From a virus: DNA of 60,032 nucleotides. The stretch is taken from IMG/VR virus record IMGVR_UViG_3300024259_000033, positions 1-60,032 of that record. One strand, given 5' to 3'. The position numbers were made by a program, and so were the translations under genes. This document shows, piece by piece, positions 38,030 through 55,785 of this stretch (position 1 is its first letter; each line of letters starts with the position of its first letter). The notes under the pieces were generated by a model, which saw only the letters and a program-made list of their open reading frames with translations, did no database searches and had not been told where the DNA came from.

Positions 38030-38745
38030 TGATACTTAATATAATATATTATAAGCAGTGACTAGCCTTTATAGTAAAAGTAGCCAAGCCACTTATAGCG
38101 TGTTTTAATACTACATACTACATACTATTGCAATATCAGCACCAACCATCAGTTATAACGCCCGACTATGCGACCTATTCGGAAGGCATCCGCCAACTAT
38201 TCTATAAGAAGTTAGCAACTTGTTAAGTATTGGTTTAGTAATGATCTAAACGATACCCCTCTAAGAATTCTAAGCCAAATTTAGGATTTGAACCTAAATC
38301 TCTAATCTAAAGAATTAGTAATTTGAATCTAAAGAATTAGTAATTTGAACCTAAATCTAAAGGATTAGTGTGTTTCCTATTACACCATTTTGACAAATAC
38401 TCCCTCGTACCAGTAATCACTAGCACAAGGAAGAGGTTTTCGAAGTAGCAAAGTACCATGCCCTACTTTTATAATATAACTTTGTTTCTGTGTCCAGTGT
38501 ATGGTTTCCGTTTCGATTGAATATTACATTTTTTGAAGGTCTTATTGCCTTAGCTACTAGCACTCTACAATGAATCGTATGTAGAGGTCCGCTTATTTTA
38601 CTTGTTCGGTACGAGCAAGACTTACAGGTTTCCCTCGGCATATTCCACCGTATAGTAAGTATAGGGGCTACTCTCAACCCGTAGCACGGTTCCCATTCTA
38701 AGTGCGGAATCACACTAAGTTAAAAGATTTCTCTCTCAACCTTAT
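38030..38745 (-). ncRNA. Structured non-coding transcript containing a tRNA-like element
   Basis: A strong minus-strand promoter starts a ~700-nt region without coding potential. Stems visible by eye include GCTAC/GTAGC (38667-38685), CTTGTTCG/CGAGCAAG (38601-38619, one mismatch) and CTCTACA/TGTAGAG (38563-38586). A tRNA-like fold lies at 38273-38394 within the transcript. Large ornate phage RNAs such as GOLLD and ROOL are often next to or around tRNAs, so this is a candidate member of that kind of RNA; sequence identity to them could not be tested. Confidence 0.5.
38273..38394 (-). tRNA. tRNA-like element (Lys-type anticodon) with 22-bp tandem insertion, probable pseudo-tRNA
   Basis: On the minus strand: acceptor GTCAAAA, then TG, D-arm GTGT-AATAGGAA-ACAC, a CTAAT...ATTAG anticodon stem with TTT in the loop, T-arm TTAGG-TTCAAAT-CCTAA, and acceptor 3' strand ATTTGGC. 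Between the first anticodon-stem copy and the T-arm there are two tandem copies of a 22-bp unit (38306-38327 and 38328-38349), which lengthen it to ~122 nt. It has no encoded CCA. It is probably inactive unless the repeat is removed. Confidence 0.55.
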
Positions 38746-52090: not shown

Positions 52091-52414
52091 ATGAGGACGT
52101 CTAAAATTAGAGGTCATAAAATATTTTACGATGGTACAGAATGGCGGTTTTGTGATACAAGAAAAGCTACATCACAAGCCGCCTTTTTGTCACGTCCATG
52201 CAATTATTGTAAAAAATATTCTACCAAAGAAGGGTATGATGGATGTTTAGGAACATTAATTGGTATAATGAATGTATGCTGTGGTCATAGAAGAAAAAAA
52301 GAAAGTTATGTTCAATTTTTAGATGGTCATTCAATACATGGTAAAGACGCATATAAAATTTTAAAAATACTTAAAAGAATAAATGGAGGACAAAATGAAA
52401 AAGAAAATACGTAA
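52091..52414 (+). CDS. Cys-rich conserved-type phage protein, 107 aa
   Basis: MRTSKIRGHKIFYDGTEWRF CDTRKATSQAAFLSRPCNYC, then GCLGTLIGIMNVCCGHRRKK and SYVQFLDGHSIHGKDAYKIL. Cys and His pattern C..C...C..CC.H suggests one zinc site. This protein type recurs in Gram-positive phages with unknown function. It overlaps the start of the phosphatase gene by 20 bp. RBS AAAAGGAGAAAAT. Confidence 0.55.
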   Translation: MRTSKIRGHKIFYDGTEWRFCDTRKATSQAAFLSRPCNYCKKYSTKEGYDGCLGTLIGIMNVCCGHRRKKESYVQFLDGHSIHGKDAYKILKILKRINGGQNEKENT

Positions 52415-53519
52415 ATTGCTATTTGCTTTAATACTATTTTTATGTGTTAATGTATTTGTTGGAGCAGGCTTGCCTGCGACAGCAGAAAGGCAATTAGGAA
52501 ATGAAAAAGAATACATATTTTATGTAATTGGCGATGGGATGGGAGAGGCTCATCTACAATTAGGTAATATTTATAGCAAAGTTGCATATGGAAGTTCGGC
52601 AGTATGGGAATATCCTAGTTATCGTAGTATGTTAATAGGTGGTGCAGAAAGTTCACAGGGTGGTTCTATGTTAGCAACAGGCGAAAAAAATGGTGCAGGA
52701 TTAATTTCTGAACGCAAGGATGGAACAGAATTGATTACTATTTTAGATGTGGCAAAAGAAAATGGATATGCTACTGGTATTGTTACTAATGCAAGTTTAG
52801 CTGATGCTACCCCTGCTGCATTTTATGCACATGCAGACTATAGAAATAAAATGGATACTATATCGAAATGTATCCCTACATCAGAAGTTGACTACTTCAT
52901 TGGAGGTGGAAAGAATTTTCTAGATCGTAACAATATTGAGGGAGAAAACATAGTTAGTGTAATAGATTATGATTTACCTTTCCTTTATTTGAGACATCAT
53001 GAAAAATTTAAGCATTTATATGAGGATTTACCTTCTTTATTAAATATGACTTTAGATGCAATAGATTATTTAAATGATGATAATGATAAGATGTTTATAG
53101 TAATTGAGTCTTCTGCAATTGATGGTGCGGGACATCAGGAAAATGATGTGTATGCTGCGGCAGAAATGAATAGAATGAACTCACTAATTAGAATGTTATC
53201 TTCTTTTGATAATGCTAATATAATATTGACTGCTGATCATGAAACAGGTAATCATTCTATGTTAGATAAGCCTATTGCAATTAATCCTAAAAAAGAACCT
53301 ATCAATTTAATTTCAGCATCTAGAATGACTGCTAAGATTGCATATAATGCGGGATTAAGACCCCATTCTTCAAAACATTCGAGACAAAAAGTCCCATTAG
53401 TCTTATTCTTAGATGACGGCAAGGATGTACATCATTTTACCGATTGCAAATCTATTGTTGATATACCACATGCTATTTGTGATATGATGGGATGGGAAGA
53501 TACTCTAGATAATGATTAA
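52395..53519 (+). CDS. Secreted alkaline phosphatase (PhoA family)
   Basis: 374 aa. The start at 52395 follows TGGAGGACAAA. Sec signal peptide MKKKIRKLLFALILFLCVNV with cleavage near LPATAE. The active site is complete: VIGDGMGE (Asp47), GAESSQGGSMLATGEK (Ser86 nucleophile; Glu85 replaces the usual Asp), LADATPAAFYAH (Asp137, Thr139), VIESSAIDGAGH (Glu238, Asp243, His247), LTADHETGNHS (Asp281, His282) and a final His328 in SSKHSRQ. It would hydrolyse phosphomonoesters outside the membrane. Such a gene is rare in tailed phages; phosphate scavenging is the simplest idea. A terminator follows. Confidence 0.85.
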   Translation: MKKKIRKLLFALILFLCVNVFVGAGLPATAERQLGNEKEYIFYVIGDGMGEAHLQLGNIYSKVAYGSSAVWEYPSYRSMLIGGAESSQGGSMLATGEKNGAGLISERKDGTELITILDVAKENGYATGIVTNASLADATPAAFYAHADYRNKMDTISKCIPTSEVDYFIGGGKNFLDRNNIEGENIVSVIDYDLPFLYLRHHEKFKHLYEDLPSLLNMTLDAIDYLNDDNDKMFIVIESSAIDGAGHQENDVYAAAEMNRMNSLIRMLSSFDNANIILTADHETGNHSMLDKPIAINPKKEPINLISASRMTAKIAYNAGLRPHSSKHSRQKVPLVLFLDDGKDVHHFTDCKSIVDIPHAICDMMGWEDTLDND

Positions 53520-53626: not shown

Positions 53627-54280
53627 ATGAAAAAAACATTATATCCAAAAACAGAAAGATACAATCCTAAAAAGCTAATACAGATTACTGAAAAAATTAA
53701 TGGTGAATGTATTGGTTTTGCTAAGGATTTAGATGGTAATTTTATGATTATACAAAGGAATAATTTTTTTACGTTATTTTGTAATGATCACAATGAAATA
53801 GATTTTTCTAATGAGTTAAGTGTTATTTCTATTTTATATAAACAACTTCATGACTGGTTATTAGAAAATGGAGAAATGTTATTTAATGAACTACATTCAG
53901 GTTCAGTAATTTTTGGAGAGTGGGTTCATTCAAATTCAGGTACCTATACTCAAGGTCATTATGGAGATAGTTTATTTAAAATGTTTGCTAAAGCAAATAT
54001 AGACGAATATTATATTATAGGTCGTTATAAATATGACCATGACTTATTTAAATATCCATTCATGAATGTAGAAATACCTTCTTATATTGATGTAGTTCCA
54101 TTTATTAATAAAATGCCTATGTGTGCTTTAAGTTTAGAATTTTTAAATCGTTTGTATGAGCGTTATACACGAACATATGGAATTCATGTAGAAGGATTCG
54201 TAATTGAGATTGATGGGATGATAAAAAAGTATGTTCGTAAAAAAGAAAATAAAACTATCGAACATTTTTGGAAAGATTAA
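53627..54280 (+). CDS. ATP-dependent RNA-ligase-like nucleotidyltransferase
   Basis: 217 aa. The motif I lysine lies in ITEKINGECIGFAKD (Lys23). Motif III is VIFGEWV (~95-100), motif IV GIHVEGFVIEIDG and motif V IKKYVRKKEN near the C-terminus. The order and spacing fit the minimal nucleotidyltransferase domain of Rnl2-like RNA ligases; a DNA ligase is less likely because no OB domain follows. The neighbouring tRNA array and split tRNA make RNA repair or joining a natural role. RBS AAAGGAAGGCAAAA. Confidence 0.7.
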   Translation: MKKTLYPKTERYNPKKLIQITEKINGECIGFAKDLDGNFMIIQRNNFFTLFCNDHNEIDFSNELSVISILYKQLHDWLLENGEMLFNELHSGSVIFGEWVHSNSGTYTQGHYGDSLFKMFAKANIDEYYIIGRYKYDHDLFKYPFMNVEIPSYIDVVPFINKMPMCALSLEFLNRLYERYTRTYGIHVEGFVIEIDGMIKKYVRKKENKTIEHFWKD

Positions 54281-54305: not shown

Positions 54306-54334
54306 TTGACTTTTTGTGAAAAAAATGATATAAT
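54306..54334 (+). promoter_or_regulatory. Promoter of ~1.4-kb structured RNA
   Basis: TTGACT, 17 bp, TATAAT. The transcript would start near 54341; no start codon with an RBS follows for 1.4 kb. Confidence 0.85.
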
Positions 54335-54859
54335 AAGTTATAAAGAGAATTAAAAAATAAATAGATTTGGCAGTTTGGTGTCAACGAAGATAAATATGGT
54401 AACATATGAAAAGATAGTGTGATAAACTATCGCTATGAAAATAGTCTATCCAAACAATTGAGGACAGAGAGCTTCCCCTAATGGGTGCTTGTTTCATTAA
54501 GTGATTTGTGGAACTATAGCCTGTGAAGTTTTCCCAAAATGCGATGGTGTCTTATAATGTGCTAATTGTTATAAGATTATGCTACGTCAGAAACAACGGA
54601 CAGTCTGCGTTTCGTGCTATTATAACGATAGCTAGGGAATTGGTAAAACGAACAGTATCTAGAACTCAAAGACTATAAGTTTGAACTTAATCAGTAAAAG
54701 CGATAGTCAATATTACAAACGGTTTTTGGTTTAGCCTAGAATCTAGTAATATATCATGAGTAAACATGATTGTTGAAAATGTATAGCGGTGTGTTGCATT
54801 TATTATTCGCAAGATAATAAACAACTGTACTGGCACATCGTGTATCAGACCAGATTTGC

Positions 54860-54914
54860 GTAGGTTCGATCCCTACCTTCCCCACCATTTGGGGAAGTAG
54901 CTCAGTGGTAGAGC
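54860..54914 (+). tRNA. Permuted tRNA halves (3' half before 5' half)
   Basis: First comes T-arm GTAGG-TTCGATC-CCTAC, acceptor CTTCCCC and ACCA (54860-54887). Then comes TTT, followed by acceptor GGGGAAG (54891-54897), TA and D-arm GCTC-AGTGGTA-GAGC. The acceptor strands pair perfectly (7 of 7), but in reverse order, so the acceptor stem is a hairpin closed by ACCATTT. The anticodon arm is not resolved: after GAGC the sequence TTAGT-ATTAGA-ACTAA forms a hairpin, while ACCAG or CCAGA precedes the T-arm. Joining would need splicing or ligation of the flanking RNA. Confidence 0.6.
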
Positions 54915-55746
54915 ATTAGTATTAGAACTAAGTTAGAGAAAAGGTTATAAGCAAAAGACCAGTACATGGTTAGACGAAAGCAACTTAATGCCGTACTTAC
55001 AGAGGAATACGGCTCAATGGATACTGCAAGTTGAAATTGATTAATGGCATTTCTGCACGGTGGGTTCATTACCCTTTACATGCTGACGGTAGGAAATACA
55101 TTGAGTAGTTTAATTAATAAGAGGAGTGCCACTCTTTAAAAAAGGCAGTTGTAAGCAATACCGTTTTGGAACGGTGGATAAATAGAGAATAAATAATTCT
55201 ATAAAAGATGCTTAATGGTAGTTATAATCTCAGACTTTACCTATTTCTGTAAACAAGTAAATTGCGAAAGCATTTATGAGTTAAAGGAGTTTATGTAAGT
55301 AAACTCCATGATGTCGATGTAGTATGCCTCCACGTGGCGACATTGGGTAATTCTAAATACTATAGGTGAATTAATGACTGAATAATCCTTTTCACGGGAT
55401 AAGGTATGGTAAATATCGGGGTGAAGTTCCCTAATTTGAAATTCGATAGAAATATAAGATGTTAGCCAGTTTCAATATGATTGACCGTCATTAGATAGAC
55501 TAAACGATAGAGAAGCTATGCGGTGTTAAAACTGAATTTAGTTTCTTGCGGCTAGAGTATATCTCGAATGTGGTTTAGGTTGTAATATAATATGAAAGTC
55601 CGCTAATTTTGCAAGTAGTGAATGTATTACTTGGGTAAAACTGAATAACCCTGCTTCTAGTAAGTATCCTATTAATGAATGACGAGCCTATAAAGTTGAT
55701 TGAGAATGAAATTTACCAAATTAATATATACTATTGTATATATCAG

Positions 55747-55785
55747 AAATAGTGTATTTGCAAAAGTACACTATTTTTATTTTAA
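55747..55785 (+). terminator. Terminator of structured RNA
   Basis: AAATAGTGTA / TACACTATTT stem followed by TTATTTT, just before the RBS of the next gene. Confidence 0.85.

Follow-up and report, generated by a model that had tools for sequence, protein, structure and literature searches.

A GOLLD RNA in a viral record carries a circularly permuted tRNA-like module in its variable linker

Introduction

Cryo-EM of the GOLLD RNA env-38 revealed a 14-mer RNA cage (Kretsch et al., 2025; PMC12286853). The linker of env-38 was unresolved in this structure and was inferred to lie inside the cage. Phage tRNAs are sometimes present in the GOLLD linker, and divergent 5' regions are known for the class (PMC12286853). 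In a mycobacterial GOLLD a pseudo-tRNA has been predicted (PMC6582537). The tRNA-like domain of bacterial Y RNA superposes on tRNA in a circularly permuted manner (PDB 6CU1; PMC11472068).

We analyzed a stretch of 60,032 bases, referred to here as the window, which is the virus record IMGVR_UViG_3300024259_000033. The RNA described below resembles GOLLD (RF02032; env-38, PMC12286853) in its full-length match to the 3' domain, its AGCAAAAG motif, a linker-closing helix, a divergent 5' region and its location in a phage tRNA island. In the known accounts the linker contains ordinary tRNAs or a pseudo-tRNA; the RNA of the window differs by a permuted tRNA-like module and by about 540 nt of extra RNA. 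With YrlA (RF02553), whose domain is recognised as a tRNA mimic, the module shares the same circular permutation and the succession of T-arm, closed acceptor hairpin and D-arm. Unlike YrlA, it is located in a GOLLD and not in a Ro60-binding RNA, matches the family below its cut-off, is not accompanied by a Ro60 gene in the records searched and includes an anticodon-like arm. In the two-piece tmRNA (RF04321) a short loop with CCA likewise leads from the acceptor 3' strand to a 5' strand that follows it, whereas the window has a canonical tRNA D-arm, no identified tag reading frame, a score of 22.3 bits against a cut-off of 47, and GOLLD as the partner RNA. Red algae and archaea have permuted tRNA genes, which also encode the tRNA 3' half ahead of the 5' half; in the window, however, the breakpoint lies 3' of the anticodon arm, the decoding parts are not conserved in relatives and splicing is unsupported. 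We found no description of a permuted tRNA in GOLLD in the literature covered; an earlier remark may stand in the first publications on GOLLD and Y RNA, which lay outside that coverage.

Results

A GOLLD RNA in a viral tRNA island

The Rfam GOLLD model (RF02032) matches window positions 54786-55236 over its entire length (model positions 1-416 of 416) with 167.9 bits (E 2.2e-45), compared to a gathering score of 150 bits. The RNA is a GOLLD with an unusual linker, and its location agrees with that of the class, in phages or prophages close to tRNA genes: the record encodes phage proteins, and ARAGORN predicts 12 tRNA genes upstream of the GOLLD (47.3-50.9 kb) and four downstream (56.2-57.4 kb). 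The terminase of the record shows 35-48% identity to terminases of large Bacilli phages (Geobacillus virus E3, Enterococcus phage H1). The features of the locus are as follows.

53627-54280, plus strand: RNA ligase gene (PF09414, 34.7 bits, cut-off 27) directly upstream of the GOLLD RNA, given as context and with a putative role
54306-54334, plus strand: sigma-70 promoter-like site (TTGACT-17-TATAAT, 11 of 12 positions, TG before the -10 hexamer; total for the region not above shuffles)
54341-54785, plus strand: probable 5' region of the GOLLD RNA, folding better than shuffles (z -3.03, 0 of 100)
54786-55236, plus strand: conserved GOLLD 3' domain including the linker (RF02032)
54949-54957, plus strand: conserved GOLLD motif AAGCAAAAG at the 3' end of the linker (Rfam alignment), used to fetch other GOLLDs
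55237-55785, plus strand: structured 3' extension with an A+U-rich hairpin and a T-run at its end (z -2.67, 1 of 100 shuffles)

No Rfam match was found in 54341-54785. The folded RNA continues for about 540 nt beyond the Rfam-defined GOLLD domain, and 55237-55785, in which no Rfam match exceeded threshold, could be an extension of the GOLLD or a second RNA. The A+U-rich hairpin and T tail that close it are likely a terminator, although a strict terminator scan, which needs three G-C pairs, did not report the hairpin. The initial annotation had described an ornate RNA with its own promoter and terminator, and listed several ornate RNA classes, of which GOLLD proved to be the right one. The assignment to GOLLD, the folded RNA following the Rfam domain and an anticodon-like arm at 54916-54931 had not been recognized.

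Three further observations were made in the window. The heptamer CTTCCCC at 54472-54478, in the 5' region, is an exact repeat of the acceptor 3' strand described below, and its pairing with GGGGAAG at 54891-54897 could form an alternative structure. An alkaline phosphatase-like gene (PF00245, 87 bits) is present at 52383-53519, close to the endolysin gene of this phage genome. On the minus strand, 38273-38394 (122 nt) gives an Rfam tRNA match of 33.7 bits which is not called by ARAGORN and is possibly an interrupted or degenerate tRNA.

A permuted tRNA-like module in the GOLLD linker

The variable linker of the GOLLD contains a permuted tRNA-like module (54860-54931), which the Rfam alignment places in a variable, unpaired stretch just before AAGCAAAAG. 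The module and the helix that encloses it are composed of the following elements.

54826-54833, plus strand: 5' strand of the linker-closing helix, TGTACTGG, pairing with 54959-54966 (minimum-energy fold)
54859, plus strand: C at tRNA position 48, Levitt partner of G15 (comparison of the 15-48 pair)
54860-54876, plus strand: T-arm, GTAGG-TTCGATC-CCTAC (direct reading)
54877-54883, plus strand: acceptor 3' strand, CTTCCCC, all seven positions forming Watson-Crick pairs with 54891-54897
54884-54890, plus strand: acceptor hairpin loop, ACCATTT, with a CCA end remnant (ACCA at 54884-54887, TTT at 54888-54890; direct reading)
54891-54897, plus strand: acceptor 5' strand, GGGGAAG (direct reading and fold)
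54898-54914, plus strand: U8-A9 and D-arm, GCTC-AGTGGTA-GAGC (D-arm 54900-54914, with A14, G15 and G18G19; direct reading)
54916-54931, plus strand: anticodon-like hairpin, TTAGT-ATTAGA-ACTAA, with a 6-nt loop (minimum-energy fold)
54959-54966, plus strand: 3' strand of the linker-closing helix, CCAGTACA (minimum-energy fold and comparison of positions)

Free folding of 54820-54975 (z -2.45) returned the 8-bp closing helix, the T-arm, the acceptor hairpin, the D-arm and the 5-bp anticodon-like stem. The acceptor hairpin comprises 8 bp in this fold, the seven pairs being extended by one A-T pair, and the anticodon-like loop of 6 nt becomes 8 nt if its last pair opens. The coordinates and letters given in the initial annotation, its count of seven acceptor pairs out of seven and its 8-bp helix enclosing the halves were all correct. 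The chain is broken 3' of the anticodon arm, in the variable-loop region and thus outside the anticodon loop. ARAGORN did not predict an ordinary tRNA at the site, and the two halves do not match any tRNA of the window well. A permuted-tRNA pattern matched the window once and 100 shuffled windows not at all. As a control for chance, 739 pairs of adjacent ordinary tRNAs in the fetched loci were inspected, and two of these (0.3%) had acceptor strands complementary at all seven positions.

In many GOLLDs a counterpart of the 8-bp helix, with different letters, begins right after AGCAAAAG. Examples are TGTGTCAG/CTGACACA in L058, ACAGTAG/CTACTGT in the viral locus L308 (see below), and CCCGAAG/CTTCGGG and GACGGAC/GTTCGTC in other GOLLDs. 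The occurrence of a helix of other sequence at the same position indicates that the 8-bp helix is an element of GOLLD and not part of the tRNA. This conclusion depends on fixed position combined with sequence turnover, because a shuffle control for the closing helix did not discriminate owing to the large search space.

Conservation and covariation of the module in relatives

Relatives were retrieved with a pattern in which a tRNA 5' half is linked to AGCAAAAG, followed by DNA searches of bacterial genomes. The patterns required AGCTCA-type D-arms, so that more divergent modules would escape. Most of the first 59 loci matching the GOLLD pattern were not GOLLDs, and a strict GOLLD pattern with TAATGCC gave no matches. 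The permuted module was found at the same place in a GOLLD (173 bits) of a second viral contig, IMGVR_UViG_3300032038_000517 (L308). About 400 nt downstream of this GOLLD, within a tRNA island, lies a ROOL RNA (327.7 bits). Flavobacteriaceae GOLLDs L328, L336, L338 and L340 scored 119-131 bits, which is below the gathering score, with E-values below 1e-30. The DNA searches identified GOLLD in 13 of 69 Winogradskyella genomes and in two further genomes from Flavobacteriaceae, and each of the 16 distinct GOLLD loci retrieved from this family contains the permuted module in the same position. Winogradskyella marincola YYF002 is one carrier of the module.

In an alignment of the flavobacterial modules (A2), 96.4% of the cells pair and 11 of 19 pairs show changes on both sides. 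The covariation score was 0.426, compared to 0.156 for shuffled alignments (0 of 500 reaching the observed score) and at most 0.114 for slid ones. After addition of the window and L308 (A3) the score was 0.474 against 0.173 for shuffled alignments, and each of the six counted acceptor pairs varies on both sides among relatives. The T stem is fully paired in the 17 aligned modules, with two compensatory pairs, and the D-stem is 95.6% paired, again with compensatory changes in relatives. The covariation that the initial annotation had proposed as a test is therefore present, and contradicts the alternative it had raised of two decayed tRNA copies. When the record was searched with a model built from the flavobacterial copies alone, window 54838-54961 was the top hit at 44.7 bits, and the runner-up within the window scored 28.9 bits. 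At the Levitt pair 15-48 the window and L308 have G-C and 12 of the 16 flavobacterial modules have A-T, a change that fits a folded tRNA core.

Other parts of the module vary. The acceptor loop is ACCATTT in the window, CGGGAG in L308 and AACA in L372, a module with a leucine-type tRNA body; CCA is thus not conserved, although many flavobacterial modules have ACCA or ACCG, often as a remnant, after the acceptor strand. Acceptor length ranges from 4 to 8 bp across the permuted modules, with four pairs only in L338. Anticodon loops differ in sequence and length among relatives, and the anticodon arm is deleted entirely in L363, L374 and L375. Because neither CCA nor the anticodon is conserved in relatives, a decoding tRNA is not what selection keeps. 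The copy in the window has a perfect acceptor and ACCA, and relatives from other lineages are what suggest that tRNA function may be lost in it.

Searching phage DNA with the GOLLD of the window returned no relative, none was retrieved via the adjacent RNA ligase gene, and eight terminase relatives (including Geobacillus E3 and Enterococcus H1 and EF1) gave no GOLLD match. As these searches yielded no GOLLD closely related to that of this phage, the covariation is mainly that within Flavobacteriaceae. In some 100 further viral GOLLDs the linker had no recognizable tRNA-like element, indicating that the module is dispensable for the GOLLD class and is a lineage-specific variant.

Permuted modules were also encountered outside GOLLD. 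In the flavobacterial loci L387 (7014-7225), L388 (9784-9967) and L361-L375 a second RNA with one or two tandem permuted modules (YrlA-like, 35-41 bits) lies downstream of the GOLLD. In L387 and L388 it is followed by an SPFH/slipin gene, and L388 also has an RtcB RNA ligase gene. Permuted modules among repeated Y-RNA-type stems occur in Rhodobacter phage RcXuper (L377, 1496-1573), L119 and L105, and these three were set aside as GOLLD modules since they lie in Y-RNA-type repeats and not in GOLLD. In RcXuper an alpha-type permuted tmRNA was matched in addition (106-108 bits), and a TROVE gene is present on the L119 contig. The remark in the initial annotation that no permuted tRNA was known from a phage does not hold for modules of this kind, which are found in phage Y-RNA-type loci; permuted domains are, moreover, known in bacterial Y RNAs (PMC11472068). 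Candidates L378-L382 were rejected as chance or tandem-tRNA matches, and L393 and L394 as ordinary tandem tRNAs.

Unpermuted tRNA bodies in other GOLLD linkers

Several viral GOLLDs have ordinary or degraded tRNA bodies just 5' of AGCAAAAG, at the same place as the module. These are Gln in L025, Asn in L039 and L055 and Met in L046, with a further body in L058. The linker bodies of L303, L312 and L313 match the Rfam tRNA model without the acceptor stem (model positions 7-64), and similar bodies are present in L318, L034 and L056. The GOLLDs with unpermuted linkers (L025, L039, L303, L312, L034, L056) resemble the GOLLD of the window in having a tRNA-derived fold at the same spot with D- and T-arms kept; they differ in their normal order and, in several cases, in the absence of an acceptor stem. 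The dispensable part is thus the acceptor stem in unpermuted linkers and the anticodon arm in permuted ones. D-arm and T-arm remain in both topologies, which argues that the elbow is kept in both. This apparent retention of the elbow across topologies is the core of the interpretation given below.

Discussion

We propose that the RNA is a GOLLD in which the permuted linker module probably acts as a built-in tRNA mimic, comparable in this to the permuted tRNA-like domain of YrlA, and not a permuted tRNA gene. The chain would enter the module at the variable-loop side, run through the T-arm, the closed acceptor hairpin, the D-arm and the optional anticodon-like arm, and leave beside its point of entry, where the 8-bp GOLLD helix would clamp both ends. 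Judged from its sequence, the module is predicted to fold as a tRNA-like core with a D/T elbow (U8-A14, 15-48, and G18G19 with the T-loop), and we infer that it is a permanent part of the GOLLD and not a tRNA precursor. By analogy with env-38, a single cryo-EM structure of a different GOLLD, the module may be located inside the RNA cage. Such a tethered mimic could recruit, hold or titrate a factor that recognizes the tRNA elbow, for instance a tRNA-modifying enzyme, RNase P, the ribosome or a nuclease, and binding or holding of a predicted factor of this type is the likely role of the module. As the chain ends would lie at the variable loop, the most that nucleases acting on tRNA ends could do is open the small acceptor loop, and the permuted GOLLD chain would thus stay in one fold. 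Were an ordinary tRNA at the linker site processed at its ends, the GOLLD would be split in two.

Alternatively, the short loop after CCA might be removed by RNase P together with a nuclease acting on tRNA 3' ends. The product would be a two-piece GOLLD, comparable to two-piece (permuted) tmRNA, in which the acceptor stem and the elbow hold the chains together and a CCA 3' end lies inside the cage. The perfect 7-bp acceptor, ACCA and TTT spacer of the window copy speak for such processing, ACCA or ACCG is kept after the acceptor strand in many flavobacterial modules, and the Rfam tmRNA_permuted model weakly matches the core (22.3 bits, cut-off 47). However, the hairpin loops of L308 (CGGGAG), L372 (AACA), L363 and L371 are without CCA and the acceptor of L338 is only 4 bp long, so cleavage cannot be the general function. 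We consider the two-piece arrangement unlikely as an explanation of the module, while a two-piece form is possible for the ACCA-bearing copy of the window.

The window module has the permuted tRNA-like domain that characterizes YrlA, which raises the question whether GOLLD captured a Y RNA domain, possibly bound by a Ro60-type protein. The Rfam YrlA model matches the core with 28.1 bits in the window and 37.7 bits in L308, and Y-RNA-type units with the same module adjoin flavobacterial GOLLDs and occur also in phages. All matches are nevertheless below the YrlA cut-off of 69, the match in the window covers model positions 30-81 only and lacks the Ro60-binding stem, and no TROVE/Ro60 gene was found in the window record (probably a fragment), the L308 record or four flavobacterial genomes. 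With 28.1 bits against 69, a match to the domain only and no Ro60 gene in the record, the RNA was not classified as a Y RNA, and we regard capture of a YrlA domain as improbable.

According to the initial annotation, the RNA would have to be cut and rejoined within the anticodon region to give a mature tRNA. The permutation on which this suggestion was based is real, covaries and is part of a GOLLD, whereas tRNA production by joining is not supported: the loop has 6 nt, the anticodon arm and CCA are not conserved, L338 keeps a 4-bp acceptor, and the break lies in the variable-loop region. A true permuted tRNA gene, with halves excised from the GOLLD and joined into a decoding tRNA, would account for the perfect acceptor, the T-arm, the D-arm and ACCA. 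In its favor, an RNA ligase (PF09414) is encoded directly upstream, and RtcB is encoded near one flavobacterial copy. The canonical 7-nt anticodon loop with U33 and the conserved anticodon of a functional tRNA are lacking, as the loop has 6 nt in the best pairing (or 8 nt) and neither the anticodon nor the entire arm is conserved. Homologues of the ligase are found in Aerococcus AVP phages and Lactococcus P087-group phages, in which no GOLLD is annotated alongside (as judged from annotation and not from RF02032 scans), and the adjacent ligase was rejected as a joining enzyme on this ground. This explanation is very improbable. To our knowledge, the splicing endonuclease used for permuted tRNAs is absent from bacteria, which also counts against it.

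Decay of two adjacent tRNAs may well be the origin of the module, and ACCA-TTT-GGGGAAG resembles a normal spacer of a tRNA cluster in an RNA flanked by 16 ordinary tRNAs, but a mere accident, in which two adjacent copies lost their outer halves and now stand head to tail, is hardly credible given the rarity of fully complementary acceptors among adjacent ordinary pairs, the recurrence of the arrangement with compensatory changes in two other lineages and the poor match of the halves to the tRNAs of the window.

Taking the module as a tethered tRNA mimic, we tentatively extend the proposal to other GOLLDs, an extension that we consider possible but doubtful. GOLLD cages of several lineages might present an interior tRNA elbow, in two opposite topologies that would have arisen independently from tRNAs and of which the permuted one would resist tRNA-end processing; GOLLD would then be an RNA compartment capturing a host or phage factor that handles tRNA. 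The linker is the sole part of GOLLD unseen by cryo-EM, and in some lineages selection appears to maintain it in a tRNA-like fold, one that could not serve as an ordinary tRNA precursor. GOLLD joins the Y RNAs as a host of permuted tRNA-like domains, and the observation that tRNAs are sometimes near or in GOLLD may be turned into a testable idea, namely that the cage displays a tRNA mimic.
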